From positions 1 to 32,903 of the IMG/VR virus record IMGVR_UViG_3300031269_000053: DNA of 32,903 nucleotides. One strand, 5' to 3'. Of the stretch, positions 683 to 32,903 are shown in pieces. The stretch is from a virus. The notes beneath the pieces were generated by a model that had not been told where the DNA came from, did no database searches, and worked only from the letters and a program-made list of their open reading frames with translations. The stretch's first letter is position 1. Each line of letters begins with the position of its first letter. The translations under genes were made by a program, and so were the position numbers.

Positions 683-3600
683 ATGGGTAACCGTGATCTA
701 GAGTTTGTCATTGGCGTTATTGACCAGGCAACGCAGCCGCTAAGAGATATCGAGCAAAACGTCTCAAGTATGGGCGACGGCGTCAAGCGTACTGCCGCGC
801 TAATGGCAACATCGGTTGCCACGGCTGGGGTAGCACTGGCTGGCGTAGCTGCTAAGGCGACAGCCAGTGCGGTTGCCTTCGAGAGTGACATGGGCGAAGT
901 TTTTACTTTGTTGCCCAGCGCCACCGAGCAAGCCATGGGACAAATGACAGACGACGTGCTCGCGTTTTCCGCGGCGGCGGGTGTTGTACCCAGCGATGTC
1001 ATCACACCGCTCTATAACGCCATATCTGCGGGTGTACCACCTGATAACGTATTTACATTTTTAGAGACCGCCAACCAAGCAGCCGTAGGCGGCGTTACCG
1101 ACTTAAATACAGCAGTAGACGGGCTCACATCTGTAGTTAACGCTTACGGCACAGACATCCTCAGCGTACAAGAGGCGAGTGACGCCGTTTTTACGACAAT
1201 TCGAGGCGGCAAAACCACTTTTGACGAGCTATCTGCAAGCCTGTTCAACGTTATCCCCGCCGCGGCGAGCCTAGGTATTGGCATAGACGAAGTGGGCGCC
1301 GCGCTGGCGGCGATGACCGCACAAGGCACGCCCACAAGCGTCGCCACAACTCAGTTACGGCAGTTATTTGTCAAGCTTGCCGACTCTGGCAGCGAGGTGG
1401 GTAAGCAATTCGGGGCAGTGTCTGGGCAGGCGTTTCCGGACTTTGTCGCCGCAGGCGGTACAGTACAAGGCGCTCTGGAACTACTAGAAGATGACGCAGA
1501 CGCTAATGGCGTGGCGTTTAGATCGCTTTTCTCTGACGTCGAGAGTATGAACGCGGCGCTATTGCTGACCGGCACCGGTAGCGAGATATTTGCTGCCCAG
1601 CTAGAAGAGCAAGCGAACGCAGCCGGGGCAACGGCGGCAGCCTACGAGACAATGCAACAGACTGTAGGTCGTGCGCTCGAGACACTACGCGCCAATGTTG
1701 ACGTGGTGTTAATCCAGCTTGGGCAACAGTTTTTACCCGTCTTGGCTGACTTTTCCGACTGGGTTGTGGGCAATCTGCCTACAATCCAAAAGACAATACA
1801 ACAAGCGTTTGACGCCATCGGCACAGCCATCAGCGCAGGGCGTCAAGCATGGCAAGATCTGCAGACGGGATTCGAGGGTGGTAACGCCGCCAACCTCGTG
1901 CAAGCGTTTGGCGTTGGTATCGCTAAGACGCTCGACGCTACTCGTGCGGTCATCGAGGCATTTGGGGACACGTGGCAATCGCTCAGCGACTTACCCGCCA
2001 TCAAGGCAAGCGCGGCGCTTGCCGTCGAGATAGGCGGCGTGGCTTGGGAACTTGTGCAAGAGGTATGGGCGTGGCTCGACAGCCAACCCGTGCAAAGTGC
2101 CATACAGGGCGCCGTTAAATTCGGGGCTGACATAGCTGAGGGCGCGTTTAGGTTGGCACAAGATGCTTGGGCGTGGCTCGACAGCATCGCAGGGGAAACG
2201 ATAGCCGAGGCTCGAGCTGTCTTTGCCGCTGACATCCCAGACATGGACAAACTGGCAACCGTTGGCGGCGAAATGGTTGCGAGTATCCTCGACGGCATAG
2301 CCAACAAACTGCCCAGCCTGCTAGCCAGCGGTACACAGATGATCGCTCAGGTTTTGGAGGGGCTCGCCACTAAACTGCCCACAATGATAGACGCCGCCAC
2401 CGCCACCGTTGCTAACTTTATCGACGGTTTGGGGCAAGGTGCGCAGTCGAGTGGGATAATCGACGCGGCGCGTAACCTTGTGTCGGTTGTTTTGACAAGC
2501 ATTTTGCAGGCGTCGCCAAAAATGCTTACGGCAGGCGTTAATCTCGTGGCTGCTCTGGCGACGTCGCTCATTAACGGCGTGGCGTCAGTAGCCAAAGCAG
2601 CCGCCACCGTAGCGGGTGCGGCTACCGCTGAGTTTTTGGGGTTACCCGGCTGGGTTACTGAGGCGTGGACTAACGCCATGACCGACCTGGAAACCGTCGT
2701 TACAACCTCGTCGGCGACGGTTATCGGTATAGGTAAGGACTTTGTTAACTGGATATTAGAGGGACTGGCTACCCTTGGGCAGGCGATGGCAGACAGCGGC
2801 GTCGAGGCTATCAACAAATTTATTGACGACACACTGGGACAGATACAAGCTCGAGCCGCCCAAGTTACTAACGCCATTACTGACTTGTTTGGCGGTGGTG
2901 AAGCTGAGATTGCCCAACGCGGGTCTAGCGTCACGGAGGAATACAACAGGGCGCTCGAGCAGGGCTTAAGCGGCGGCGAGGCTAGGACCGCCGCCGCCCT
3001 CAGGCTGATGTTACAAGGCGCGTTTGTTGAGGGTGAACAGGTTGCGGCGTTTATCGGGAATAATATCGGCGTTGAGACCGTCGCTGGCATGGAAATGGGC
3101 ATGTTAGGGCAGTTACAAGGCGCTATTGACGCGGGGTTAGTCGTCGCTGACGGCGTCGAAGACGCTGTTAAGAGTCGTCTAGGCATTCAGTCGCCCTCGC
3201 GTGTGTTCGCCGAAATTGGCGAACACACCATGGCGGGTTTTATAAACAGCGTCAGGGACAAGGCTGCTGACGCTGGCACGGCAGCACGTGAGGCTGCTGA
3301 CGCTGCCGCAAACGCATTTCGGGACACCCTCACAGCGATGTCCCTAGAGCTCGACTTACGACTCGTAGAGCCCGAGCAGCTTAATGCCGACCTCACTGTT
3401 ATATCTGAGAGGCTACGCGAGCAGATTGTAGCCATGCAAGCGGCTGGGGAGTCGGGCTCAACGGCTTATATCGAGGTTGGTAGGCAACTGCAAGCCGTCG
3501 AGAGCCAGTTGGGCAACGTAAACCGGGCTATACAGCATAATGCAGACACTGAGGCTGCCGCGCTCGAGCGTCAACGTGAGCAGCGTCAACGGTGGGCAGA

Positions 3601-6600
3601 CTGGGCAACACAGTTACATGACGAGATGGCGGCGACTGAACAGGCGCGTTATGAGTCAGCCGTGCGCATGGGGCAAGTTAGTCTCGACGAGCAACTCAGA
3701 TATATACAAACACGCCTCGACGACGAGCGTGTGTCAGCGCGAGCCCGTATCACCTTAGAAGAAGACGTGTTTAACCTACAAAGCCAGATAGCCGACAGAC
3801 TACAAGAGCAACAAAGGGTAGTGCATGACGAGCGGCTCAACCAATGGCGCGAACGTTTGCAAGTTGAAGCACAAGCGGCTGGGGAGTCACAACGCTACCA
3901 AGAGGCGCTGTATGATTTTGGGCTCGAGCAAGGTGATATCTCACTCGCTCAGCACTTGGATGCTCTACGCGAGCGATTAGCAGCCACCGAGGCTGGCACG
4001 CTTGACGAGATTGCATTGTTGCGACAGGTAGCCGACACGGAGACGGAAATAAACAGCGAGCGCCTCGCAACACAAGAGGCAACACAAGAACGCTTACAGG
4101 CTATGCACGCCGAGGGCGAGAATGCATGGCGCGAGCGTCTGCAAGCCGAGACGGCAGCACGTGAGCAGGCAGCCGCCCAAGCCCAGGCAATAGCCCGGGC
4201 GCAGTATGATTTTGACAGGCACACGGGCGCAGTATCCTTACAGCAGCATCTCGACAACTTAGCGCAGCGCTTACAAGGTGAGCAGCTAAGCGGCGAACAG
4301 ATCATTGCCATACAACGCGAGATATATGACGGCGAGCAACAGTTAGCACAAGAGGCGTTAGCGCGGCAGCAAGCTATACACGCCGAGCGCGCTAACGCAT
4401 GGGCTGGGCAGTTACAAGCCGAGACGGCAGCACGTGAGCAGGCAGCCGAGCAGGCAGCCGAGATAGCCGCAAATCAGTACGCTTTTGAGCTCGAGCAAGG
4501 TGATATATCCCTGCAAAGCCACCTTGACAACCTCAACGCTCAACTTGCTGGCACTGAGCAATACAGTAGCCAGTGGGTGTCGATTATGGGCGATATCGCC
4601 TCGACTCAAGAGCAGATGGCAGCCGACGAAGAGGCGCGTATAGACGCCATACGCGACGCCAATATGGACATGCTAGGTACGATAGCCGACGGCGTTGGCA
4701 GCCTCGCACCTGTGTTTGAGGATATGGGCGGGTTTGCTTCAACTGCGTTTGATGTGGTCTCGGGTGGCGTTGACAACATGCTAACAGCGCTCAAAACCAG
4801 CGAGACTGGCACGCTATCACTCGCCGACGGTTTTGGCGCGATGGCTGGCGCGGCTGCGTCAAGTAGTGACATCGCCATATCTGCTCTTGGCGGGTTGGCA
4901 CAAGCTGCGATGTCGTTTGCCACGGGCGACATTGTGGGCGGCGTGACGGGCGTCGTTACTACTGCTATAAGTGCTATTAGCGGACTGTTTTCGCGTGCTA
5001 GACGGCGCGCCGAGAAATACCGCAAAGCTGTCGAGACGTCAACTCAAGCGCTCACAGAAGCAACAGAACAACAATGGGAAAATCAACGCAGTAACCAAGA
5101 GCGGATACTAGAGCTACAGTACAGCAGCGGACTTGTGAGCACTGCCGAGTATAACGCCGCGCGCCTTGACCTCAACGAGGCTGCTCGTGAACAAGAGTAT
5201 CGCAGCCGCCGACGCGAGTTAGGACAACAATTTGAGGCAAACGCTGCCGAGGCTGCTGACGAGCAGTTCGCGCAGTCGTTGCGTTTACAGTACCGATATG
5301 ACGCCTTCAACCTTAGTCAGGCTATGCAACTCGACGAGATAACCGCAACCAGTGATCACCTCGCCACTTTGCAGGGCATGGAGACGGACGCGGGTGCGGC
5401 AAAAATCGCCACATATGAGGCTATGGGCGCTCGCGTGCTTGAGCTATCACGGCAAGCATTTGACGCTCGCCACGCTGGCGAATTTGAGTTAGCGCGGCAG
5501 TTAGAAACCGAGCGCGACGAAGTTAGTGCGCAGCTTGACGCGTTCGCGCTCGATTTGTCGGCGGGTTTTACTGGGCTTGTCACCACAATTACCGTCAGTC
5601 AAGAACAAATCGACGGCGCTACCCAACGCCTTACTAATGACTTTGTTGACTCGCTCAGCAAATTAAGCGGCACAGACGCAACCTTTGCTGAGACTGCCGA
5701 GTTTTTAGACTCACGTTTTGAGTCTTACATCACCACAACCATATACAACATGGCTGTCGAGGCTGCCCTGGCTAATAGCGTCGTAGCGCAAAACATGGCA
5801 CAACTTAGCGTGCTCATAGATGAGGCTGTTAGAACTGGTGACTGGGCAGCAGTTACGGCAGGCGTGGCAGATGTTGGCGCACAGCTACAAGACACGCTTG
5901 GGCAGTTATCCATCACAGTAGGTGGCGCGCTTGAGGCGGTTTTTGACGAAACTATCGCCACAAGCGCTGAGGGGGCTGAGGCTACGACAGACGCCCTTGG
6001 TCAGTCGGGCGAGACAATGGCAGGGGCTGCTACTGACGCATTTAGTAGCGCAGGGGACGCGATAACGGCGGGTGCGCATGGGGCTAACGATCAACTTAAT
6101 AGCAGCACAAGCGAGCTCGAGCTAGCCATTAACGCCAGCGCCGCCCTAATCGAGTCGCAAATGCAGCTCGCCGAGGGGACGATGGGGGCAAGTGCTGACG
6201 CCACATATACCGCGCTAATGGCGGAGATTGACGCAGGTACACTCACCACAGCCGACGCCCTCAACATGTCAAGCGCCGAGCTACAAGCGCGCATAGCCGA
6301 GCAAGAGCAAAACATAGCCGACGAGTTTGCGGCATCTGAGGCTCACATGTCGGGCGCAGCTGAGGGCGCATTTGCCACAACAGAGGGCGCGGTGGTTACC
6401 GGCGCCGCAAACATCACGGCAGCGTTAGACGTTAGCCAAAGCGAGATTGCGGCGGGTGTCGAGGCGTCCATATCTGCCACTAACGCGGCATGGGAGGCAA
6501 GCGGTGGGCAGCTTGACGCCACAATTAACAGCACGCTAACGACGGCGCAAACAAGCCTACAAACACAGGGGCAGGCGCTCGTAGGTGAGGCGAACGCCCT

Positions 6601-7183
6601 CAGCAGTAGCCTATCGGCGGCTGCCAACACGCTAGGTGCTGCCGTCGCTGGTTTGGGCGGCGCTATCACTAATGCTAACGCCACACAAGAGGCTGCCGAG
6701 GCTGCGGCGGCGGCAGCCTCGGCAGCCGTTGACGCCATAGAAGAAGAGCTCGACATAAACAGCCCCTCGCGTGTGTTTGCCGATATTGGCGAGATGACGA
6801 TGCTAGGTTTTGGCGAGGGGATTGTAGAGGCTGCCAACGTGCCAGTTAGTGCCATGCAAAGCATCACGAGCGCACTATCAGACGCAGCTAACGTCAATTT
6901 GTCACGCGACTTAGACATGGGCATAAGGGCGCAGGCGTCCATATCTGCCACCATGCCAAGTGCGCAAATGAACCTACTAGAAGCTGAGCAGGCAAGCCGC
7001 GAAGACTGGCTTAACCGGCAAGCCGACATAGCCCAGCGCATGGCGGCGGCTGCCGAGAAATTTGACACGGCAAGTAACACCCTTAGCTCTGGCACTGTGA
7101 GGGCGGCTGTGTCTAATGAGCGCGCCGCTAACGAGTTCGCAGGGGCAGCCCGGCAATTTGACTGGAGTCGGATACGGAAATGA
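683..7183 (+). CDS. Tail tape measure protein
   Basis: This 2,166-residue protein sets tail length and is ejected through the tail. The N-terminal ~350 residues resemble the TP901-type tape-measure core, rich in Ala/Gly helices (for example FESDMGEVFTLLPSATEQ). Hydrophobic helices follow in the middle. Residues ~950-1330 are coiled coil with about four diverged ~90-residue repeats, and the C-terminus is low-complexity Ala-rich. The motif SPSRVF occurs twice, at ~837 and ~2028. I chose the ATG at 683 because the in-frame GTG at 665 lies inside the terminator stem; the ribosome site is weak either way. At about 1.5 angstroms per residue the tail would be roughly 325 nm. The gene fills about 20% of the genome and overlaps the next gene by ATGA. 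Confidence 0.92.
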   Translation: MGNRDLEFVIGVIDQATQPLRDIEQNVSSMGDGVKRTAALMATSVATAGVALAGVAAKATASAVAFESDMGEVFTLLPSATEQAMGQMTDDVLAFSAAAGVVPSDVITPLYNAISAGVPPDNVFTFLETANQAAVGGVTDLNTAVDGLTSVVNAYGTDILSVQEASDAVFTTIRGGKTTFDELSASLFNVIPAAASLGIGIDEVGAALAAMTAQGTPTSVATTQLRQLFVKLADSGSEVGKQFGAVSGQAFPDFVAAGGTVQGALELLEDDADANGVAFRSLFSDVESMNAALLLTGTGSEIFAAQLEEQANAAGATAAAYETMQQTVGRALETLRANVDVVLIQLGQQFLPVLADFSDWVVGNLPTIQKTIQQAFDAIGTAISAGRQAWQDLQTGFEGGNAANLVQAFGVGIAKTLDATRAVIEAFGDTWQSLSDLPAIKASAALAVEIGGVAWELVQEVWAWLDSQPVQSAIQGAVKFGADIAEGAFRLAQDAWAWLDSIAGETIAEARAVFAADIPDMDKLATVGGEMVASILDGIANKLPSLLASGTQMIAQVLEGLATKLPTMIDAATATVANFIDGLGQGAQSSGIIDAARNLVSVVLTSILQASPKMLTAGVNLVAALATSLINGVASVAKAAATVAGAATAEFLGLPGWVTEAWTNAMTDLETVVTTSSATVIGIGKDFVNWILEGLATLGQAMADSGVEAINKFIDDTLGQIQARAAQVTNAITDLFGGGEAEIAQRGSSVTEEYNRALEQGLSGGEARTAAALRLMLQGAFVEGEQVAAFIGNNIGVETVAGMEMGMLGQLQGAIDAGLVVADGVEDAVKSRLGIQSPSRVFAEIGEHTMAGFINSVRDKAADAGTAAREAADAAANAFRDTLTAMSLELDLRLVEPEQLNADLTVISERLREQIVAMQAAGESGSTAYIEVGRQLQAVESQLGNVNRAIQHNADTEAAALERQREQRQRWADWATQLHDEMAATEQARYESAVRMGQVSLDEQLRYIQTRLDDERVSARARITLEEDVFNLQSQIADRLQEQQRVVHDERLNQWRERLQVEAQAAGESQRYQEALYDFGLEQGDISLAQHLDALRERLAATEAGTLDEIALLRQVADTETEINSERLATQEATQERLQAMHAEGENAWRERLQAETAAREQAAAQAQAIARAQYDFDRHTGAVSLQQHLDNLAQRLQGEQLSGEQIIAIQREIYDGEQQLAQEALARQQAIHAERANAWAGQLQAETAAREQAAEQAAEIAANQYAFELEQGDISLQSHLDNLNAQLAGTEQYSSQWVSIMGDIASTQEQMAADEEARIDAIRDANMDMLGTIADGVGSLAPVFEDMGGFASTAFDVVSGGVDNMLTALKTSETGTLSLADGFGAMAGAAASSSDIAISALGGLAQAAMSFATGDIVGGVTGVVTTAISAISGLFSRARRRAEKYRKAVETSTQALTEATEQQWENQRSNQERILELQYSSGLVSTAEYNAARLDLNEAAREQEYRSRRRELGQQFEANAAEAADEQFAQSLRLQYRYDAFNLSQAMQLDEITATSDHLATLQGMETDAGAAKIATYEAMGARVLELSRQAFDARHAGEFELARQLETERDEVSAQLDAFALDLSAGFTGLVTTITVSQEQIDGATQRLTNDFVDSLSKLSGTDATFAETAEFLDSRFESYITTTIYNMAVEAALANSVVAQNMAQLSVLIDEAVRTGDWAAVTAGVADVGAQLQDTLGQLSITVGGALEAVFDETIATSAEGAEATTDALGQSGETMAGAATDAFSSAGDAITAGAHGANDQLNSSTSELELAINASAALIESQMQLAEGTMGASADATYTALMAEIDAGTLTTADALNMSSAELQARIAEQEQNIADEFAASEAHMSGAAEGAFATTEGAVVTGAANITAALDVSQSEIAAGVEASISATNAAWEASGGQLDATINSTLTTAQTSLQTQGQALVGEANALSSSLSAAANTLGAAVAGLGGAITNANATQEAAEAAAAAASAAVDAIEEELDINSPSRVFADIGEMTMLGFGEGIVEAANVPVSAMQSITSALSDAANVNLSRDLDMGIRAQASISATMPSAQMNLLEAEQASREDWLNRQADIAQRMAAAAEKFDTASNTLSSGTVRAAVSNERAANEFAGAARQFDWSRIRK
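3590..4670 (+). repeat. Internal ~90-residue coiled-coil repeats in the tape measure
   Basis: Repeated protein blocks follow a pattern of W-x-x-x-L-Q-x-E, then QYDFELEQGDISLxxHLDNL-like, then a Glu/Gln/Arg-rich helix. Copies begin near 3595, 3845, 4125 and 4400. DNA identity is high between the copies at about 4140 and 4415 (AGCCGAGACGGCAGCACGTG in both), so the last duplication is fairly recent. Gain or loss of units would change tail length. Confidence 0.7.
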
Positions 7184-13666: not shown

Positions 13667-13983
13667 TTTTACTAGTGGTGCTGATGTTGGTGGTGTTACA
13701 CGCGGCATTCTGGAGTCTCGAGCAGCACACACGATTAGAAGCCGTTTTGCTCATTTGCCTTACTTTGCTCGCACTTACACTGATCGCTGGGGTCGCGATA
13801 TGTCGGGGCGCCGCAACCCCAGAACCACCCAACACAACCCGCGATCTAATTGCTGTCGTTTCTGCAGGTTGCTTTCATACTGCCATCCTCTCGCAGACGC
13901 CACCCCCGGTGGTGTTATTTTTTGCCCCAAAAGTTGCCATAAACCAAGGCGCTTTTAGGGCGTTTTTGCCCTACCCAAACTAA
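13663..13983 (+). CDS. Small two-helix membrane protein (holin candidate)
   Basis: Starting at the GTG that overlaps the preceding stop (GTGA), the product is about 106 residues. It has two hydrophobic segments, ILLVVLMLVVLHAAFW (~2-17) and AVLLICLTLLALTLIAGVAI (~26-45), joined by a short polar turn, which is the shape of a class II holin. The C-terminal half is Pro-rich and ends in the repeat region, so the true stop may be recent. A GTG at 13615 would add 16 polar residues. Confidence 0.5.
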   Translation: MILLVVLMLVVLHAAFWSLEQHTRLEAVLLICLTLLALTLIAGVAICRGAATPEPPNTTRDLIAVVSAGCFHTAILSQTPPPVVLFFAPKVAINQGAFRAFLPYPN

Positions 13984-14140
13984 CACAGTTTCACTAACCC
14001 AAACTAACACTGTGTCACTAACCCAAACTAACACAGGTTTACTAACCCAAACTAATCCTGTGTTAGGGGGGGGATAATCCTGCGTTAGGGGGGGGGTAAT
14101 CCTGTGTTAGTTAGGGGGGTAATCCTCTGTTAGTTAGGGT
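13973..14140. repeat. Iteron-like array with inverted G-run units; candidate replication origin
   Basis: ACCCAAACTAACAC or a close variant starts at 13973, 13997, 14021 and 14045, an exact 24-bp period. It is followed by four units starting TAATCCTNNGTTAG at 14053, 14075, 14097 and 14120, with G runs of 8, 9, 6 and 3. CTAACACAGG and CCTGTGTTAG are inverse, so the two halves can pair, and one more inverted copy lies at about 14202-14216. Iterons next to early replication genes are typical of phage origins; the role is inferred. Confidence 0.55.
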
Positions 14141-14726
14141 ATTTTAGACAAATTGCCATTTGGCACGTGACAGACGACAAAAACCCCAAATAGCCTAAGT
14201 GACACAGGATTACCCTAATGGAAGTACTTAATTACCAGTCTATTGAATTACCAGTTGAATAGAGATCCGATTCGCTACAGAGTCAGGGGGAAATTTTGGT
14301 TTTGCCCTCGGGGGAAATTTTGGTTTTGCCCTCGGGGGTATGCTCGGTTTGCCCTCGGGGGAAATTTTGGTTTTGCCCTCGTAGGTATGCTCGGTTTGCT
14401 AGCGATTTGGCTAACGTTTGCCGTCACTGATTTTGAGATGTTCCGCGGCGTTTCACAAAAAGCAATAATTAGCAACGCGTCAATTGTGGGTAGGTTATCG
14501 GCTGCTATTTTGGCGTATGCGCATTGTGAGCCGTTTTAAGGCACGCCCAAACTCGCAAACGTGCAGATATACCCAAAAGCATCTTACAAGCCCGTTTATG
14601 GGGCTTGTGGTTTAAATGGCGGCATATTGTGGGGGTGCTCGTGTGGCGAGTTTGTGGGTGTTGGCTTGGTTAGGTTTGCCAAAACAGACAATAAGCCCGT
14701 GCTAGACGCTCGACATCCCAAAGGGC
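14141..14726. other. Long intergenic stretch without a convincing gene
   Basis: Apart from the 24-bp repeats, this holds only doubtful ORFs. One is 98 codons from a TTG at 14243 that reads through the repeats, giving GKFWFCPRGKFWFCPRG then a hydrophobic stretch. Another is 63 codons from a GTG at 14561. Neither has a ribosome site. A hairpin ACAAGCCC/GGGCTTGT lies at 14586-14608 without a following T run. The stretch ends at the first early promoter. Confidence 0.5.
14286..14403. repeat. 24-bp tandem repeat (GGGGGAAATTTTGG type)
   Basis: Five units run head to tail: three nearly identical 24-bp units starting GGGGGAAATTTTGG and ending TTTTGCCCTC (14286, 14310, 14357), and two 23-bp variants with TATGCTCGG (14334, 14381). 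The mixed 24/23 lengths break any single reading frame, so this is probably not coding. It may be part of the origin region or a protein-binding array. Confidence 0.85.
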
Positions 14727-14755
14727 TTGACAGACCAGTAGAGAGATGTTAAGAT
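14727..14755 (+). promoter_or_regulatory. Sigma70-type extended -10 promoter, early block, copy 1
   Basis: TTGACA (14727-14732), a 17-base spacer and TAAGAT (14750-14755) preceded by TGT make a consensus -35 with an extended -10. The core and flanks match copies at 15099 and 15869 almost base for base, starting from AAGGGCTTGACAGACCAG. It drives the first small gene at 14858. Confidence 0.8.
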
Positions 14756-14857
14756 TAGCCAATACCAAGTAGGGAGAACGGGTATTAGATTGAGAGGTTG
14801 GTTTTGCAAGTTTATGCGCCAGATGCGAAAAATATTCATGAAGACAAGGGAGATAAT

Positions 14858-15079
14858 GTGATCGAGTGGCGTAGCCCAACAACTAACGACTGGCAAAGTT
14901 TGCTCGAGCCGCTGAAAGACCGTCCCAACGTATGGGCAGCCGTGGCAAAGTATGGGACATCAGGCAGCGCACGTTCTACTGCGCATCAGTTACGTAACGG
15001 CGCATACCGTACCCCGGCCGGGCGCTATCAGTACCGCTCGAGTAAGGGCGAAGTCTTCGCCCGTTACCTAGGCGAGTAA
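14858..15079 (+). CDS. Small basic protein, unknown (possible DNA-binding)
   Basis: The chosen GTG at 14858 follows AAGGGAGAT, matching the AAAGGAGAT ribosome site used by the following genes, and gives 73 residues. Upstream TTG starts (14798) would add 20 residues without such a site. The sequence has Trp-rich helices (WQSLLEPLKDRPNVWAAVAKY) and a basic C-terminal half (QLRNGAYRTPAGRYQYRSSK). The pattern resembles small proteins common in phage early regions. No function is assigned. Confidence 0.6.
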   Translation: MIEWRSPTTNDWQSLLEPLKDRPNVWAAVAKYGTSGSARSTAHQLRNGAYRTPAGRYQYRSSKGEVFARYLGE

Positions 15080-15098
15080 GTCAAAAGTAAAAAAGGGC

Positions 15099-15127
15099 TT
15101 GACAGACCAGCAAAGATATGTTAGGAT
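15099..15127 (+). promoter_or_regulatory. Sigma70-type extended -10 promoter, early block, copy 2
   Basis: TTGACA (15099-15104), 17 bases, then TAGGAT (15122-15127) with TG-T just before. The transcript would start near 15134 and carry a short leader with the GGGCTG/CAGCCC hairpin and an AAAGGAGAT ribosome site. Confidence 0.8.
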
Positions 15128-15144
15128 TAGTCAATACCAAATAA

Positions 15145-15162
15145 GGGCTGCATTAACAGCCC
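15145..15162. promoter_or_regulatory. Leader hairpin, copy 1
   Basis: GGGCTG-CATTAA-CAGCCC lies 5-6 bases upstream of the AAAGGAG ribosome site. The same 18 bases recur at 15583, 15915 and 16299 in front of four consecutive genes. A leader hairpin next to a ribosome site may stabilise the mRNA or modulate translation. Confidence 0.7.
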
Positions 15163-15180
15163 ACCCAAAGGAGATTTACC

Positions 15181-15525
15181 ATGAAAAGCCACAACCCGAA
15201 CAACTACGAAGTAACACACGGCAGCCTGCTACATACTGGGTCTCGCCGTACCCACAACCCGAACGATTACGAAGTAACTGCGAAAGATCACCTTGTCAGT
15301 CTTGACAAGCAATCCAACCTAGAGGCGTGGACTATTACCACCCCCGACGGCGACAAGCTGGTCATATCCGTTGCCGTGAACCACATGAGAGGGATCGGCT
15401 TTAGCACCACCGACTGGCGGGGTCCGCAGCCGCGGACGTTTGACGAGATCCGGAATTACGACTGGGTAAGCTTTGATGGTCAGGGCGTCATCTTACCCTT
15501 TGGGATGTCGACCTTGTTTGTGTAG
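15181..15525 (+). CDS. Early paralogous family protein 1 (N-terminal duplication)
   Basis: This 114-residue product belongs to a three-gene tandem family whose core is HNPNDYEVTAKD, LEAWTITTPDGDKL, GFSTTDW and a final DY-x-W pair. In this copy the opening block HNPN[N/D]YEVT is duplicated (residues 4-11 and 25-32). It has a strong ribosome site and its own promoter and leader hairpin. The proteins are small, acidic and soluble with no known motif. The early location suggests host takeover or anti-defence, which is only inference. Confidence 0.75.
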   Translation: MKSHNPNNYEVTHGSLLHTGSRRTHNPNDYEVTAKDHLVSLDKQSNLEAWTITTPDGDKLVISVAVNHMRGIGFSTTDWRGPQPRTFDEIRNYDWVSFDGQGVILPFGMSTLFV

Positions 15526-15537
15526 ACCTACCCGCAC

Positions 15538-15561
15538 AGCCGGGGGCTCCCCCCCCCGGCT
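15538..15561. terminator. GC-rich hairpin module, copy 1
   Basis: AGCCGGGGG (15538-15546) pairs with CCCCCGGCT (15553-15561) over a C-rich loop. No T run follows on the + strand, so classical termination is doubtful. It may instead act as a pause or processing site. A near copy is at 16256-16277. Confidence 0.5.
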
Positions 15562-15582
15562 CAACCGAACAAAAATAAAAAA

Positions 15583-15600
15583 GGGCTGCATTAACAGCCC
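15583..15600 (-). terminator. Leader hairpin copy 2; intrinsic terminator on the - strand
   Basis: GGGCTG-CATTAA-CAGCCC is preceded on the + strand by AAAAATAAAAAA. Read on the - strand, the hairpin is followed by TTTTTTATTTTT, a textbook terminator tail. On the + strand it is the leader of the gene at 15619. Confidence 0.65.
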
Positions 15601-15618
15601 ACCCAAAGGAGATTTACC

Positions 15619-15858
15619 ATGAAAAGCCACAACCCGAACGACTACGAAGTAACCGCGAAAGATCGCCTTGCTAGTCTTGACGGGCAATCCAGCCTAGAGG
15701 CATGGACTATCACCACCCCCGACGGCGACAAGCTGATCATATCCGTTATCATGGACCACATGAGCGGGGTCGGCTTTAGCACCAGAGACTGGCAAGAAGC
15801 GCAACCGCAAACGGTTGGCGAGATCCAGGATTACGGCTGGGTCGGCTTTTTCCTGTAG
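15619..15858 (+). CDS. Early paralogous family protein 2 (minimal copy)
   Basis: This is a 79-residue copy of the family, with one HNPNDYEVTAKD block, LEAWTITTPDGDKLIISV and GFSTRDWQ, and a shortened C-terminus (GWVGFFL). Its DNA is highly similar to 15235-15440 of copy 1, pointing to recent duplication. It has no TTGACA promoter of its own but carries the GC-hairpin plus leader-hairpin module and AAAGGAGAT. Confidence 0.75.
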   Translation: MKSHNPNDYEVTAKDRLASLDGQSSLEAWTITTPDGDKLIISVIMDHMSGVGFSTRDWQEAQPQTVGEIQDYGWVGFFL

Positions 15859-15868
15859 ACCAAAGGGC

Positions 15869-15897
15869 TTGACAGACCAGCAAAGATATGTTAGGAT
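15869..15897 (+). promoter_or_regulatory. Sigma70-type extended -10 promoter, early block, copy 3
   Basis: TTGACA (15869-15874), 17 bases, TAGGAT (15892-15897). About 80 bases from AAGGGCTTGACAG to the ribosome site are essentially identical to the 15095-15175 copy, so promoter, leader and gene were duplicated as one unit. Confidence 0.8.
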
Positions 15898-15914
15898 TAG
15901 TCAATACCAAATAA

Positions 15915-15932
15915 GGGCTGCATTAACAGCCC
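15915..15932. promoter_or_regulatory. Leader hairpin, copy 3
   Basis: The same GGGCTG-CATTAA-CAGCCC hairpin lies in the leader downstream of promoter copy 3, ahead of the ATG at 15950. Confidence 0.7.
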
Positions 15933-15949
15933 ACCCAAAGGAGATTCAT

Positions 15950-16234
15950 ATGAAAAGCTACAACCGCCACAACCCGAACAACTACGAAATAATCGCGAAA
16001 GATTGTCTCGCTAGCGTTAACGACCAAGTCAGCCTAGAGGCGTGGACCATTATCACCCCTGACGGCGAGACACCGACCATATCCGTCGTTATGTACCATA
16101 AGGACGAGATCGGCTTTAGCACCACCGACTGGCAAGGGTGGCAGCCGCGGACGGTTGACGAGATTCAGGATTGCTACTGGGTAGATTTTGATGGCGGGTC
16201 AGCCGTCTGGTCAGAAGAAGGCTTACCCACCTAG
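15950..16234 (+). CDS. Early paralogous family protein 3 (most diverged copy)
   Basis: This is a 94-residue family member with HNPNNYEIIAKD, LEAWTIITPDGETP, IGFSTTDWQGWQPRTVDEIQD and an acidic tail (SAVWSEEGLPT). It is more diverged than the other two, and the changes keep the Trp, Gly and DW positions, so the protein seems to be under selection. The ATG at 15950 follows GGAGATTCAT. Function unknown. Confidence 0.75.
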   Translation: MKSYNRHNPNNYEIIAKDCLASVNDQVSLEAWTIITPDGETPTISVVMYHKDEIGFSTTDWQGWQPRTVDEIQDCYWVDFDGGSAVWSEEGLPT

Positions 16235-16255
16235 TTTGCATAGGTCTACCCGCAC

Positions 16256-16277
16256 AGCCGGGGGCTCCCCCCCGGCT
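16256..16277. terminator. GC-rich hairpin module, copy 2
   Basis: AGCCGGGGG (16256-16264) pairs with CCCCCGGCT (16269-16277). Flanking bases CTACCCGCAC and CAACCGAACAAAAATAAAAA match the module at 15528-15582. The copies differ by two C residues in the loop. Confidence 0.5.
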
Positions 16278-16298
16278 CAACCGAACAAAAATAAAAAA

Positions 16299-16316
16299 GG
16301 GCTGCATTAACAGCCC
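16299..16316 (-). terminator. Leader hairpin copy 4; intrinsic terminator on the - strand
   Basis: The same hairpin with AAAATAAAAAA before it gives a T-rich tail on the - strand. On the + strand it sits just before the ribosome site of the gene at 16336. Confidence 0.65.
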
Positions 16317-16335
16317 ACCCAAAGGAGATAACGTG

Positions 16336-16524
16336 ATGTTAACACAACCCGCCTCACAACATACGAACCTACCCTGGCAACGCGTCCGCAACCGCATCAA
16401 TGGGCGCGAAGGGATGGTACTCGCGGTGACACAAGACGCAGTCCGCGTGTTATGGGATGATGCCAAAAACGTCGAAGACGTTGCCTCAAGCATCCTAGAT
16501 ATCGTCAACGAGGTACGCCCGTAA
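16336..16524 (+). CDS. Small SH3/KOW-like protein, unknown
   Basis: A 62-residue product, starting at the ATG 8 bases after AAGGAG (the GTG at 16333 is slightly too close). The central part, VRNRINGREGMVLAVTQDAVRVLWDD, has the Gly-Val-hydrophobic strand pattern of a small SH3/KOW-like barrel, followed by a short helix. Such barrels bind nucleic acid or protein. It shares the leader module of the paralogous family but not its sequence. Confidence 0.6.
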   Translation: MLTQPASQHTNLPWQRVRNRINGREGMVLAVTQDAVRVLWDDAKNVEDVASSILDIVNEVRP

Positions 16525-16534
16525 CAAAAACGAA

Positions 16535-16554
16535 CGCGCATATACACATGCGCG
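16535..16554. promoter_or_regulatory. Hairpin upstream of the gene at 16589
   Basis: CGCGCAT (16535-16541) pairs with ATGCGCG (16548-16554) over a 6-base loop. It occupies the place held by the GGGCTG hairpin in the previous genes, ahead of AAAAGGAGATAACCC. It has a different sequence but the same layout. Confidence 0.5.
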
Positions 16555-16588
16555 CCGTCAGTAGTCACCCACCAAAAGGAGATAACCC

Positions 16589-16915
16589 ATGTTAATACAT
16601 TCGCGGATTAAAGGCAAGCTCATCACCCAACTCATTAACGCGCTCGACAGCGCCGACATGGCAGATTTTGACGTAGCAGCCGCCAATATCGCAGCGCAGT
16701 TTGTCGACTACGACACGCCAATAGTAGGCGTGGCGCTCAGCATCCCCCAACAGCTCACTAACGCTGCGATATTGTTGCGTAACACGTGGGGTATATCACT
16801 GGGTACAACACGCGCAAAGCAAGGCGCTCGACATGTGTTTATCTGCGCCGAGTTAATGCCAGACGCACCCCAGTTAGACGCAGCCGAGGCAAAACGCGAG
16901 CTCACTTATGCCTGA
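16589..16915 (+). CDS. Early small protein, unknown
   Basis: A 108-residue soluble protein with a strong AAAAGGAGAT ribosome site. It is helical with Ala-rich segments and contains a probable strand (HVFICAELMPD) near residue 85. It overlaps the next gene by 8 bases. No family recognised. Confidence 0.6.
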   Translation: MLIHSRIKGKLITQLINALDSADMADFDVAAANIAAQFVDYDTPIVGVALSIPQQLTNAAILLRNTWGISLGTTRAKQGARHVFICAELMPDAPQLDAAEAKRELTYA

Positions 16916-18044
16916 GTGGGATGCTGTACGTATCTGTGACTATCCGCTCGACCCACCCGAGTATCACGAGAGTGTTTATGACTATATCCCAGAGGGGGCA
17001 GAAATGACCGAAACGACAACCACACAAGACGCGCTCGTAATACTAGAGCAGTCCGAAACTTACGACAAGCACACGGAGCTCAACCTCGTAGCAACCCGCC
17101 CCAACGCTGCCCAAGCCCTCAACGCTGCCCTCGAAATCTTTCACGAAAACGAAGGGCGCGACATCACCGCCAACGACTTTTTGCGCATTACCACGCCCAA
17201 GGCTGCCGCATGGGAGATCCCAGACAGCAGCAAACCCGCAGGCGTGCGCTATGAAGAGGCAATCGAGGGCGTGCCGGTGTTCTGGAAATCGTCGCGCACG
17301 TATTACCCCGGTGAATACGGTGAAAATCCCGTACCCTCATGCGTAAGCGTTGACGGTAAAACGGGCATCGGAAACCCCGGGGGCAACTGCGCTACCTGCC
17401 CCAAGTCTCAGTTTGGTAACGACGGCGAGACACCCTCATGCCGTCTGCGCACTGAGGTTTATGTGCTTGTGCCGGGCGCTTTGTTGCCTATCGTGCTTGT
17501 GTTTTCGCCGGCAAACAACAAGATGTGGAGCGAATTCAGACGCGAGATGTTTCACGCGCACTACTTACCGCTGCACCGGGCGATGGTGCGTTTTGAGTTG
17601 GCACCCGAAAAGAGCGCCAACAAACGCGAGTATATGCGCATTGTGCCTAATTTTTTAGGCGCTATCCCAGACGAGTTTGAGGATAACCTTGTCACGTACA
17701 AACGCGCGCTGGCTGCCGTGCTGCTTGAGCAAAACGCTGGCAACGTGCTAGAGGAGGAGGCGCTCGACCTTGCTGACACAATCTCAAAAGCTACCGCGAG
17801 CTGGTTTGTGGCGGTACGAGGTACGGTTTTAGACGGCGATGACATGCGTTCGTACTTTTTGGAGAAAAAGACGGGTATGCCATCACTTGGCGACGTAGTG
17901 CGCACGCTCAGCGCTAGCCAGTATCGCGAGTTGCTCATTGAGGCGAAGCATTTTGCTCGCATCCGCGACGGCATGACCATTGAGCAGGTTGTGGCTAACG
18001 CCGCGCCCGTTAGTGACGATGAAGCTGGCGAGTGGCTCGAGTGA
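16908..18044 (+). CDS. Replication-region four-Cys protein, possible ssDNA-binding/annealing role
   Basis: A 378-residue protein. Cys at ~145, 161, 164 and 178 (NCATCPKSQFG, then C) form a likely zinc site of a type seen in conserved phage replication-region proteins. The N-terminal part is helical and the region around 180-260 is beta-rich (VYVLVPGALLPIVLVFSP). It ends in an acidic tail (SDDEAGEWLE), as do many ssDNA-binding proteins. The ATG at 17004, after GAGGGGGC, would give a 346-residue form starting MTETTTTQ and may be the true start. ssDNA binding is inferred from position and tail, not from a recognised fold. Confidence 0.6.
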   Translation: MPEWDAVRICDYPLDPPEYHESVYDYIPEGAEMTETTTTQDALVILEQSETYDKHTELNLVATRPNAAQALNAALEIFHENEGRDITANDFLRITTPKAAAWEIPDSSKPAGVRYEEAIEGVPVFWKSSRTYYPGEYGENPVPSCVSVDGKTGIGNPGGNCATCPKSQFGNDGETPSCRLRTEVYVLVPGALLPIVLVFSPANNKMWSEFRREMFHAHYLPLHRAMVRFELAPEKSANKREYMRIVPNFLGAIPDEFEDNLVTYKRALAAVLLEQNAGNVLEEEALDLADTISKATASWFVAVRGTVLDGDDMRSYFLEKKTGMPSLGDVVRTLSASQYRELLIEAKHFARIRDGMTIEQVVANAAPVSDDEAGEWLE

Positions 18045-18244
18045 CGCACCTTGTTATTTTTAGTTCCAACGCCGATTACTTGACCGACGCCGTTGCTAGC
18101 CTTAATAAGCATTATGATGACTGGGCAAACGACACCATTAACGTCGTGAGCGTACAAACCACCCACCAAACCGTTATTAATTCCGCTGGTAACGTGGAAT
18201 ATCATTTTTTGACCCTTACAATTACCTACACCCTTGTCGGCTGA
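18041..18244 (+). CDS. Small protein, unknown
   Basis: 67 residues from the GTG that overlaps the previous stop (GTGA). It is mostly beta with TITYTLVG at the end. The last bases (CACCCTTGTCGGCTGA) are repeated at the end of the truncated HTH gene at 18682, because the module duplication begins here. Confidence 0.55.
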   Translation: MTHLVIFSSNADYLTDAVASLNKHYDDWANDTINVVSVQTTHQTVINSAGNVEYHFLTLTITYTLVG

Positions 18245-18666
18245 CAAAACCAAGCGGCTCGTGCGCTGCGATTACTGCGCAGCACGAGCCGCCCTAGAGC
18301 TTGATGGGGAGTTAACCACCCGTCAGTACTATGAGTAGCCAACCCAATACCAACCCACTAAACCGAAAAGGTGAGAATGTTTACACACATAAAAATCGCG
18401 TTTGATCTCGACATCCCCAGCAGCGAAAAACTCGTACTCATTGCCCTTTCCTGCCACGCAGACGCCGAGGGGGCATGTTACCCAAGTATCAGTCGGCTGG
18501 CACAAGACACGAGCCTCACGACTCGCACCGTTACCCGTTGCGTTGGGATGTTATCACGGCGAGGGCTTATAGAAAAGCGCGCCCGCTCAACACCGCAAGG
18601 GCGCACGAGTAACAGTTACACTTTGCGTTTAGGACAGCAAAGTGTAACTGACGACACCCAAACCGT
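18229..18666 (+). repeat. Tandem duplication, unit A (zinc ribbon + HTH N-terminus, decayed)
   Basis: Unit A matches unit B (18667-19215) at high identity but is 111 bp shorter, through a deletion in the zinc-ribbon gene. Both start CACCCTTGTCGGCTGACAAA and both end in GACGACACCCAAACCGT. The CACC at the junction is shared microhomology. Confidence 0.85.
18234..18338 (+). pseudogene. Truncated zinc-ribbon gene copy
   Basis: A 34-codon remnant whose first 31 residues nearly equal those of the intact gene at 18672 (CDYC motif kept). It then hits TAG after a 111-bp deletion that removed the second Cys cluster. It cannot form the four-Cys site and is probably a non-functional leftover of the duplication. 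Confidence 0.7.
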
Positions 18667-18682
18667 CACCCTTGTCGGCTGA
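18377..18682 (+). CDS. Truncated HTH replication-initiator-like paralogue
   Basis: 101 residues from the ATG after AAAAGGTGAGA. It is nearly identical to the N-terminal ~95 residues of the gene at 18926 (FDLDIPSSEKLVL, ACYPSISRLAQDTSLTTRTV, LSRRGLIEK), a winged HTH of the HTH_36 kind. It ends with LVG copied from the upstream gene's end. It keeps the DNA-binding domain and lacks the C-terminal region, so it could act as a competitor or regulator at the same sites, or be a by-product. Confidence 0.65.
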   Translation: MFTHIKIAFDLDIPSSEKLVLIALSCHADAEGACYPSISRLAQDTSLTTRTVTRCVGMLSRRGLIEKRARSTPQGRTSNSYTLRLGQQSVTDDTQTVTLVG

Positions 18683-19215
18683 CAAAACCAAGCGGCTCGT
18701 GCGCTGCGATTACTGCGCAGCACGAGCCACCCTAGAGCTTGCTGGGGAGTTAACCACCCGTCAGATTTTCGAGACATACGGCTGGGATGTGTATGTAACC
18801 CTACGTTGCCGCAGCCTATGCCCAGACTGCGCCCGAGGCGCGATAGCTGGTGGATACGTGCGTGCCGAGTTTCGTAACGGGCGTAAGTTTGGCGAACGCC
18901 AACCCACTAAACCGAAAAGGTGAGTATGTTCACACACATGAAAATCGCGTTTGATCTCGACATCCCCAGCAGCGAAAAACTCGTACTCGTTGCCCTTTCC
19001 CGCTACGCAGACGCCGAGGGGGCATGTTACCCGAGTATCGCCCGATTGGCACGAGACACGAGCTTCACGACTAACACCGTTACCCGTTGCGTTGGGATGT
19101 TATCACGGCGAGGGCTTATAGAAAAGTGCGCCCGCTCAACATCGCGAGGGCGCACGAGTAACAGTTACACTTTGCGTTTAGGACAGCAAAGTGTAACTGA
19201 CGACACCCAAACCGT
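18667..19215 (+). repeat. Tandem duplication, unit B (intact)
   Basis: This is the intact copy: the whole zinc-ribbon gene plus the HTH domain of the full-length initiator-like gene. See unit A at 18229-18666. Confidence 0.85.
18672..18923 (+). CDS. Zinc-ribbon protein
   Basis: 83 residues from a TTG at 18672 that overlaps the preceding stop; GTG 18699 is an alternative start. CDYC (~12-15) and CRSLCPDC (~46-53) give a four- to five-Cys zinc ribbon. The C-terminus is basic (RNGRKFGERQPTKPKR), fitting nucleic-acid binding. It overlaps the spacer of the next gene and is probably translationally coupled to it. Confidence 0.6.
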   Translation: MSADKTKRLVRCDYCAARATLELAGELTTRQIFETYGWDVYVTLRCRSLCPDCARGAIAGGYVRAEFRNGRKFGERQPTKPKR

Positions 19216-19702
19216 CACCGACACACATAGCCGTCTACCACGCGAAAACAACGAGTTAGCCATCCTAGAGACAAAACCCGTTGAACGTCAACGGAAACCC
19301 GATTATGACGCGTTTAAAGATTACTGGAATGCAGTCATACCGCCTCACTGGTCTCAGTGCATACAAATCACAGACACTCGCCAGCGCCTTATTAAACAGC
19401 TCTATGAAGATGTTGGCGTTGAGGCTGCGTTTGGCGTGTTTACGGCTGGTGTCGGTTTTTGTGTCAATGACAGATGGTGGCGCGGAAAGGACGGCATAAG
19501 CATCGAAAACATCATGAGCAACGGCAAACTCGTAGGTTTGGCGGAAAGACAGCAAACAAAACAAGCAAAAGACGCACGTGCACCATCTACCGACCTAGCC
19601 GCCTTGTTAGCAGATGACGTGACTGGGCAGCAAGGCGCACGTGTTACCGCTCCATCTAACGACCTAGCCGCCTTGTTAGCAGATGACTATGGACACAACT
19701 AA
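18926..19702 (+). CDS. HTH replication-initiator-like protein
   Basis: 258 residues from the ATG after AAAAGGTGAGT. Residues ~1-95 form a winged HTH of the HTH_36 type found in DnaD/O-like phage replication proteins. A linker follows, then a helical domain (~125-210: YDAFKDYWNAVIPPHW through KDGISIENIMSNG) as in primosomal proteins. The C-terminus repeats DLAALLADD twice. Placed ahead of a DnaC-like loader, it likely binds the origin and recruits the loader and host helicase. The HTH assignment is fairly sure; the initiator role is inferred. Confidence 0.7.
   Translation: MFTHMKIAFDLDIPSSEKLVLVALSRYADAEGACYPSIARLARDTSFTTNTVTRCVGMLSRRGLIEKCARSTSRGRTSNSYTLRLGQQSVTDDTQTVTDTHSRLPRENNELAILETKPVERQRKPDYDAFKDYWNAVIPPHWSQCIQITDTRQRLIKQLYEDVGVEAAFGVFTAGVGFCVNDRWWRGKDGISIENIMSNGKLVGLAERQQTKQAKDARAPSTDLAALLADDVTGQQGARVTAPSNDLAALLADDYGHN
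19583..19687 (+). repeat. 36-bp direct repeat at the end of the initiator-like gene
   Basis: 19583-19618 and 19652-19687 are 36-bp copies with one mismatch, 69 bp apart in frame. They encode PS[T/N]DLAALLADD twice. The second copy supplies the start codon of the next gene (GCAGATGACTATG). Confidence 0.85.
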
Positions 19703-20123
19703 GGGTTTGGGACGCGTTTCCCGAGGTAGCCGCGTGAGCATTGTTGGGGACGACATGAACCGCGAAAGGCGCATTGAGCACGCCAACGCGTTGGTTGGGT
19801 GCATTGCTAGTTGTGGTCGTAGATTCCTTGACGGTGACCCCGTTGCTCGCATCTACTGTGATAACCGGGGTCATCCGTGGTTTGTGGACGGATACACACA
19901 AAAACATATTTATTTGTATTACCCCAGATGGGGAGGTCAGCAGGGGTTTTCGCAAGGTGGGACTTTGAGGGAGTTGGTCAATCAGTTGAAAGAATGGATT
20001 ATTGGCAATCGTGCGTTCGTTAGTCGTGGAGTGTTTCAACACTGGGGTTACGGCGCTGACATGCAGATTGTGCTTGATGAAGCCGTTCGACTAGGCATTT
20101 TGGGGGATGACAGTGGGAATTAG
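19683..20123 (+). CDS. Conserved-looking phage protein, unknown
   Basis: 146 residues from the ATG at 19683, which overlaps the previous gene by 20 bases. MNRERRIEHANALVGCIASC at 19755 may be the real start, since the conserved-looking part begins there. It contains GRRFLDGDPVARIYCDNRG, WFVDGYTQKHIYLYY and WGYGADM. It is probably a small alpha/beta domain in the replication operon. No catalytic motif was recognised. Confidence 0.6.
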   Translation: MTMDTTKGLGRVSRGSRVSIVGDDMNRERRIEHANALVGCIASCGRRFLDGDPVARIYCDNRGHPWFVDGYTQKHIYLYYPRWGGQQGFSQGGTLRELVNQLKEWIIGNRAFVSRGVFQHWGYGADMQIVLDEAVRLGILGDDSGN

Positions 20124-20424
20124 TAAGCGAGAACGCAAACGCTTTGAGAGATGGTACGTGCGCCGCCACTGCCCAGATGAAGGCAGTGACCCACTCAAGC
20201 GCAGTGTCAACTACCCTTACCAGTATCCACGTGAATCAACCCGGCGCGCTTGGACAGCATGGCGAGCGCAGCACAAACGCCATAAACCCATTATTGAAGC
20301 TGCCAAAAAGCTCACAGAAGCTGTTGACCTTGAAGACCTCGAGCGCTACCTTGACGACCTCAAAACCACTATTGCCGACCTTGAGAAGGAGGCTACCCAT
20401 GACCACAACCAAGACACTGATTAA
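20107..20424 (+). CDS. Small basic/coiled-coil protein, unknown
   Basis: 105 residues from the ATG after TTTTGGGGG. The N-terminal half is very basic (KRERKRFERWYVRRH) and the C-terminal half is a predicted coiled coil (DLEDLERYLDDLKTTIADLE). It could be a loader or replication accessory that binds DNA. It overlaps the start of the DnaC-like gene. Confidence 0.55.
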   Translation: MTVGISKRERKRFERWYVRRHCPDEGSDPLKRSVNYPYQYPRESTRRAWTAWRAQHKRHKPIIEAAKKLTEAVDLEDLERYLDDLKTTIADLEKEATHDHNQDTD

Positions 20425-21118
20425 CGATGTCATCAAACCACTCGAGCAGTTCACGCTTGAGGATATATGGCTCGAGCACCCGGACGGCAGCGTGTCGCGT
20501 AGCCCCGAATACGAACGCGCTCTGAATGCTGACAAGGCGCGTAAAGAACTTGTAAACGCGGGGGTTGGCGAGCGTTACTGGCATATGCACTCGAGCCAAC
20601 TGACGCCAACTGACGCCCTTAAGCGCGTGCTGACGGGTATCAAGCGGTATCACGAGATAAAGGGTCACAACCTCATTTTGAGCGGCGGGCTGGGCACAGG
20701 CAAAACGCAGGCGGCTATCTTAATCCTCAAAAAGGCTTTGCACGAAGGCGACACTGCCTTGCTACAAAATCTCGGTTTGCTAGCTGTCACGGTGCGTGAT
20801 GGTTATAGCGCCGGGTTTGACCAAGACAAACTTACCGAGCATGGCGCTATCACTCGCATGACAACCCCCGACGTGCTGATACTAGACGATTTAGGCGCGG
20901 GGGAAACAAGCAATGCCGCCGTTGAACAGCGATTGCTTTATTTGGTACTCGAGCAGCGTTGCAACAACAAAAAAACCACCATTATCACTAGCAACCTAAC
21001 GCTAGCAGAGCTGATAAACGCTTACGGCAAACGCATCCTCAACCGCTTGCAACCAACCACCACCATTACCTTCGAGGGTACTAACTGGCGGCTCGAGCAG
21101 AGCGGGGGCGGTTGGTGA
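20399..21118 (+). CDS. DnaC-like AAA+ helicase loader
   Basis: 239 residues. The ATG at 20399 is chosen because AAGGAGG lies 7 bases upstream; the frame is open further up only as a shadow of the previous gene. The Walker A motif is GGLGTGKT at ~96-103, Walker B is LILDD at ~160-164, and a sensor-like TIITSNLT follows. This is the standard IstB/DnaC family layout with a shorter N-terminal helicase-binding region. It loads the replicative helicase at the origin. The last residues, WRLEQSGGGW, resemble the end of the winged-helix protein at 21956. Confidence 0.85.
   Translation: MTTTKTLINDVIKPLEQFTLEDIWLEHPDGSVSRSPEYERALNADKARKELVNAGVGERYWHMHSSQLTPTDALKRVLTGIKRYHEIKGHNLILSGGLGTGKTQAAILILKKALHEGDTALLQNLGLLAVTVRDGYSAGFDQDKLTEHGAITRMTTPDVLILDDLGAGETSNAAVEQRLLYLVLEQRCNNKKTTIITSNLTLAELINAYGKRILNRLQPTTTITFEGTNWRLEQSGGGW
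21086..21110 (+). repeat. 25-bp repeat encoding WRLEQSGG, copy 1
   Basis: This stretch is identical to 21924-21948. It includes GGCGGCTCGAGCAGAGCG and codes for the C-terminal residues of the helicase loader. Confidence 0.85.
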
Positions 21119-32712: not shown

Positions 32713-32903
32713 ATGGGATCACTAGCACGTACACTCAAGCGGACTGTCCAAAAGCGGCAGACATTTTTGCTCGAGGCTGAAGGCGCGCCAACCTTAACGG
32801 GACGCATTAGAGCAGTTAAACTCGGCGACACACTACGCACAACGGGGGCGGCTACGTCCCCATATGCTGCCATTTTTGAGGGGCGCGCCTCAGCTGAGGA
32901 GCG
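32713..32903 (+). CDS. Tail assembly chaperone (gpG-like), 5' part before the circular junction
   Basis: This is the beginning of the gene finished at 1-482; bases 32777-32903 are the duplicated overlap. The ATG at 32713 follows a GGGGAG ribosome site 9 bases after the tail-tube stop codon. Joined, the product is 181 residues, starting MGSLARTLKRTVQKRQTFLL. The assignment rests on position (directly after the tail tube, before the tape measure) and on the overlapping downstream frame typical of lambda G/GT-type chaperones. No sequence-level family match was recognised. Confidence 0.7.
   Translation, partial: MGSLARTLKRTVQKRQTFLLEAEGAPTLTGRIRAVKLGDTLRTTGAATSPYAAIFEGRASAEE
32777..32903. repeat. 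Terminal direct repeat (circular-assembly overlap), right copy
   Basis: This is an exact copy of bases 1-127. Removing one copy gives a circle of about 32,776 bp and restores a 181-codon reading frame across the junction. Confidence 0.95.

Follow-up and report, generated by a model that had tools for sequence, protein, structure and literature searches.

The window analyzed here spans all 32,903 bases of an IMG/VR virus record, in which three small paralogous genes, A, B, and C, stand in an array with two further small genes, U and D, and with repeated regulatory DNA (Table 1). The first and last 127 nt of the record (1-127 and 32777-32903) are identical, and owing to this terminal direct repeat the phage genome is probably complete and circular, with a length of ca. 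32,776 bp (32.8 kb). By gene content and by matches to Pfam and PHROGs, the plus strand throughout encodes a small and a large terminase subunit, a portal, a Mu gpF-like protein, a head protease, Mu-like gpT and gp36 proteins, a tail tube, a tape measure, an M23 peptidase, and a possible tail fiber. The terminase matches listed had less than 40% identity and came from varied phages. Comparison of 30 window ORFs with Pfam and of 20 with PHROGs revealed no integrase, repressor, transposase, or reverse transcriptase. The tape measure part at 2807-7180 contains an internal 119-nt repeat, the copies of which are 74% identical.

The M23 region is followed by a repeat-rich, gene-poor region (13.97-14.40 kb), then by U, A, B, C, and D, and then by Rep-like and DnaC-like genes, an order which indicates that the A-C array probably lies at the opening of the early region. 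At 13973-14215, repeats of 24 and 22 nt around CTAACACAG occur in both orientations (four exact copies, with 0.32 expected) and perhaps form an origin or operator array. The remainder of the gene-poor region includes 24-nt tandem repeats (GGGGGAAATTTTGGTTTTGCCCTC) at 14286-14399.

Table 1. Genes and regulatory modules of the array, in window positions.
Feature	Position	Strand	Description
Putative promoter module P(U)	14720-14774	+	TTGACA-17-TAAGAT, TG ahead of -10; 48/55 sites match P(A) ungapped
ORF U	14798-15079	+	93 aa, TTG start; matches C-terminal part of phrog_2660 (unknown function)
Putative promoter module P(A)	15092-15144	+	TTGACA-17-TAGGAT, extended -10
Module h before A	15145-15175	+	Hairpin GGGCTGCATTAACAGCCC and RBS AAAGGAGAT
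Paralogue A	15181-15525	+	114 aa, duplicated N-terminal block; coding by codon usage
Spacer R(A)	15526-15582	+	GC hairpin at ca. 15538-15561, A-rich stretch after
Module h before B	15583-15613	+	31/31 identical to other h copies
Paralogue B	15619-15858	+	79 aa, C-terminus shortened; coding by codon usage
Putative promoter module P(C)	15862-15914	+	Same P-h block as P(A)
Module h before C	15915-15945	+	31/31 identical to other h copies
Paralogue C	15950-16234	+	94 aa, ATG at 15950; coding by codon usage
Spacer R(C)	16235-16298	+	Last part and next h = 58 nt identical to R(A) and h
Module h before D	16299-16329	+	31/31 identical to other h copies
ORF D	16333-16524	+	63 aa, behind the same R-h module as B

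An earlier, sequence-only reading of this DNA had proposed that A, B, and C form a three-copy paralogous family. Open reading frames were found at all three of the starts that it gave, and the relationship was borne out: a search of the window with copy B recovered the other two copies (E=8e-37 for A and E=7e-29 for C), far beyond chance. Over the gapless 223-nt core, DNA identity to A was 85% for B and 76% for C, and protein identity among the three ranged from 61 to 72% over a common 74-codon core. Two of the motifs named in that reading, LEAWTI[TI]TPDG and GFST[TR]DW, are present in A, B, and C; the first motif that it took to be shared by all is found as HNPNDYEVTAKD in A and B, whereas C reads HNPNNYEIIAKD. 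The structural differences that it described among the copies were likewise recovered. A carries two versions of its N-terminal block (HNPNNYEVT, then HNPNDYEVT), the end of B is shortened, and the tail of C is altered, with an in-frame TAG three codons ahead of A's stop position. The description of the proteins as acidic fits B (pI 4.35, net charge -7.3) and C (pI 4.13, net charge -11.3) and hardly A (pI 6.01, net charge -3). Acidic DNA-mimic anti-restriction proteins of the Ocr type carry a strong net negative charge, and such a mimic was set aside for the family as a whole, given a pI of 6.0 and a net charge of -3 in A.

The DNA between the genes, absent from that reading, is itself repeated and is conserved better than the genes. 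In order, the array consists of P-U, P-h-A-R, h-B, P-h-C-R, and h-D, where P is a putative sigma-70-type promoter, h combines a hairpin with the RBS, and R, found after A and C, is a 9-pair GC hairpin with an A-rich tract. U and D showed no homology to A-C in sequence comparison. The P pattern (TTGACA, a 17-base spacer, TG, and TA[AG]GAT) occurs without mismatch at three sites, against 0.24 expected, and no other site within 13-20 kb agrees with the consensus at 10 of 12 positions; promoter-like sites in the region numbered seven, not far above shuffled sequences (4.3, SD 1.8). Module h has exactly four copies in the window with up to three mismatches allowed (0.05 expected by chance), and all four, ahead of A, B, C, and the unrelated D, are identical over the 31 nt of hairpin and RBS. 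It is predicted to fold as a lone stem-loop, leaving the RBS mostly free. On the minus strand, h has the form of an intrinsic terminator, T-run included, and for that reason it might also stop antisense transcripts.

Units A and C align from P through the h of the next gene, and the degree of identity changes sharply along them. P and h of A (to 15176) match those of C at 85 of 85 sites, whereas the coding blocks of the two genes differ at 53 of 222 (Fisher p=1e-8). R and the following h show no differences over 58 nt, as against five in the 26 nt where the genes end. A and B differ at one of 71 sites in the stretch that starts with h and closes with the first of A's two N-terminal blocks; B ends early, and the P of unit C follows directly. 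From these comparisons, we lean modestly towards the reading that copying or exchange of P, h, and R among the units postdates the divergence of the coding sequences, and that these modules act as portable regulatory cassettes, present also before U and D. It is the more recent date of this exchange, relative to coding divergence, that suggests cassette behavior, and the copying is read from one genome, since no relative with the array was found. The doubled N-terminus of A may have arisen when a 5' module was added to a gene already in place.

A rather unlikely alternative is that A-C are ordinary tandem duplicates under weak purifying selection, with promoter, hairpin, and RBS identical since every base matters. 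Regulatory elements are plausible targets of constraint, and weak purifying selection would agree with the omega of 0.62 for the three genes and of 0.44 for B-C described below. However, P(U) departs from P(A) at 7 of 55 sites, as compared with none between P(A) and P(C) (p=0.013), and yet it keeps the -35, the TG, and the -10. Many positions in P therefore tolerate change, and recent copying seems to account for the identity of P(A) and P(C) better than base-by-base constraint does. The identity of R and h ahead of B and D, which are unrelated genes, also argues against such constraint and agrees better with the copying of cassettes.

The A, B, and C frames are coding. Codon usage, trained on 14 other phage genes, was positive in the annotated frame and negative in the five other frames for each gene, and the score was reached by none of 500 base shuffles. 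The 33-nt linker within A's duplicated N-terminus, which is very short, gave a score reached by 47% of 500 shuffles and is not coding-like alone. Differences at codon positions 1, 2, and 3 numbered 10, 12, and 12 for A-B, 16, 18, and 19 for A-C, and 12, 18, and 20 for B-C. Nei-Gojobori ratios were 0.57 (A-B), 0.58 (A-C), and 0.44 (B-C) over all alignable codons and 0.62, 0.52, and 0.37, respectively, in the gapless block. These ratios look purifying, but the differences are transition-rich (27:7 for A-B, 41:12 for A-C, and 37:13 for B-C), and neutral simulation with a 3:1 transition bias gave median ratios of ca. 0.64 (P = 0.46, 0.30, and 0.066; joint 0.17).

The sequence-only reading had taken the retention of Trp and Gly amid other changes as a sign of selection and diversification. 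That argument did not hold up, as at least five invariant Trp and Gly residues arose in 47% of 1000 neutral simulations, and at least 40 invariant residues arose in 28%. It had also put forward dN/dS among the copies as a check. A three-taxon maximum-likelihood codon model returned an omega of 0.62 (kappa 7.6), which was not distinguishable from 1 in likelihood ratio tests (p=0.115 with F3x4, 0.53 with equal, and 0.20 with phage codon frequencies), so that a ratio near 1 is neither established nor excluded; an omega of 0.3 or lower, or of 1.3 or higher, fitted significantly worse. The pairwise omega for B-C (0.44, p=0.03, uncorrected for three pairs) pointed in the opposite direction to the other selection results. 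As a yardstick, terminase compared with that of a 98% relative, L005, gave an omega of 0.083, third positions accounting for 43 of the 54 differences, and part of the tape measure compared with locus L035 gave 0.54. The A-C family is far less constrained than terminase, and neutrality, relaxed constraint, and mixed diversification are inseparable with three sequences.

Because omega is indistinguishable from 1, the A-C proteins may be decaying. An account in which recombination left the copies behind as duplicates that are selectively neutral or in decay, as may also hold for the truncated Rep duplicate downstream, would accommodate this omega, the flat pattern over codon positions, and the invariant residues that neutral simulation reproduces. 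It would not lead one to expect that A, B, and C all have uninterrupted frames (P=0.073 without selection), that the RBS and codon usage are kept in A, B, and C, or that the N-terminal length changes are in frame, and we regard it as distinctly unlikely. Targets of diversity-generating retroelements show adenine-specific changes and are accompanied by a reverse transcriptase; this candidate was rejected, as the changes extend over all bases and are transition-rich, and the 30 ORFs compared with Pfam include no reverse transcriptase.

Tandem duplication is also found at the Rep locus (18224-18649 and 18662-19198), where the repeat blocks are 96% identical in 103 nt and 94% identical in 300 nt, an even divergence unlike that of units A and C. 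A truncated copy of the Rep N-terminal (HTH) domain (18371-18682) precedes the full Rep gene (18920-19702), and the truncated protein is possibly a replication competitor. The window gene at 19683-20123 has a homologue in the close relative L005 (positions 1175-1642 of L005) that lies upstream of terS and adjoins an imperfect repeat, ca. 80 nt long, in which the homologue's 5' region is included. The Rep duplication and this relocation suggest that the lineage duplicates and moves small genes. Metagenome misassembly, in which alleles of one locus from several strains were joined via P, h, and R, would suit an IMG/VR virus contig with shared blocks of 85-103 nt and a 127-nt terminal overlap that may resemble an assembly word length, but it is very improbable in view of the unique junction that fuses B's own 3' end to P(C) and of the tandem duplication at the Rep locus.

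The family had been described as one of unknown proteins, and no relative was detectable in the collections searched. Pfam, PHROGs, and PADLOC yielded nothing above cut-off for A, B, or C, and the best profile match in the PDB was at E=0.11. Searches by tblastn of A against phages and of B against plasmids returned no matches, nor did blastn of 13900-16650 against phages. In the viral contig collection, none of five candidate stretches for A and none of 30 for profile A1 proved to be related, and the genome contig collection gave 0 of 27 for profile A1; these contig scans were seeded by short peptides, so distant relatives can be missed. The family profile placed only the three copies above threshold among 5959 six-frame segments from the window and the collected loci, and among 15 records or genomes it gave one match at E<=1 (0.49, taken as chance). 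Scans of public collections for exact copies of h gave 1 viral and 17 genome stretches, none followed by the RBS block; these were set aside as chance or unrelated repeats, and the P pattern was found nowhere in the viral contig collection. As anchors, the genes at 16908-18041 and 20144-21115 brought no relatives, terminase brought 12 loci, and the tape measure brought one; when L005, L006, L007, and L035 were aligned to the window, none covered 14-17 kb. Proteins without a database match are common among phage early genes.

The predicted folds, with a pLDDT of 66.5 for copy C and 67.0 for copy B, showed a three-stranded beta-meander and no confident fold. Foldseek found no match for copy C in BFVD or the PDB at E<=0.001, and VIA-align found none of 1000 chains at Z>=5 for copy B. 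With a NUDT5-type Nudix hydrolase, the alignment covered only the N-terminal beta-meander of the low-confidence model, at Z 4.5 and rmsd 1.6 over 41 residues. The interpretation makes no use of the rows for Nudix, Pur-alpha, and other structures. A literature search on tandem small acidic early genes and repeated promoters held nothing pertinent among the matches listed.

The simplest history would be that a gene between h elements was duplicated in tandem, followed by renewed copying or exchange of P-h and R-h, with recombination at short stretches of identity as the likely means of cassette exchange. Transcription by the host RNA polymerase would begin at P shortly after infection, and h, located ca. 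10-12 nt from the putative RNA 5' end, could stabilize the transcript and leave the RBS accessible, allowing each unit to yield a small beta-rich accessory protein. By their position, orphan status, and copy number, the A-C proteins could be dispensable and host-directed, for example in counter-defense, with copies kept for dose or divergent targets; this is a guess, and a rather unlikely one, to which the PADLOC, Pfam, and PHROGs comparisons of A, B, and C lent no direct support. The fuller proposal, that P, h, and R are mobile and capture unrelated small genes and that A-C represent the amplification series of an early counter-defense protein diverging towards different targets, seems unlikely. 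If the portable-cassette reading is true, the reuse of regulatory cassettes, reported from T4-like phages, mycobacteriophages, and a haloarchaeal virus, would extend to a 32.8-kb Mu-headed phage. The orphan A-C family would be worth testing against host defenses, and identical switches beside diverged genes could serve as a simple mark by which accessory early genes are recognized.

Several known systems resemble parts of this array. T4 is reported to gain tandem copies of tifA when under pressure from a defense, through recombination between microhomologies that are typically 6-10 bp long (PMC9391042). The likeness would lie in the tandem amplification of a small early-promoter gene via short repeats; tifA copies, however, are fresh and have a known target, whereas the copies here differ by 15-24% in DNA. 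The PeSL of T4-type phages (Arbiol 2010, Comeau 2014, as cited in PMC4503421 and PMC3950731) join an early promoter to a stem-loop among shuffled ORFs and were proposed as mediators of shuffling. Similarly, an early-type promoter appears to lie between variable ORFs here, in the form of three TTGACA-17-TA[AG]GAT sites with TG and putative early timing. In PeSL, however, the stem-loop is a terminator, whereas h and R, although strongly folded, lack a T-run on the plus strand, and the present genome is small, has a Mu-like head, and contains three such promoters only.

The SAS/ESAS element of cluster K mycobacteriophages is a conserved RBS-proximal sequence repeated before unrelated non-structural genes, and some copies have an upstream inverted repeat and a SigA-like promoter (PMC3203893, PMC11373665). 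The role of these elements is given as unproven (PMC3203893, PMC7302621, PMC11373665, PMC12699233). The array resembles SAS/ESAS in placing a near-identical RBS motif ahead of several unrelated genes, here with h and RBS the same at 31 of 31 positions. In contrast to SAS/ESAS, the inverted repeat here lies between promoter and RBS and forms a perfect RNA hairpin, and there are four copies as opposed to 11-19. The SAS consensus (GGGATAGGAGCCC) had no match in the window with up to two mismatches. Since neither this consensus nor the terminator part of PeSL is present, the array appears to be a member of neither group and analogous to both PeSL and ESAS.
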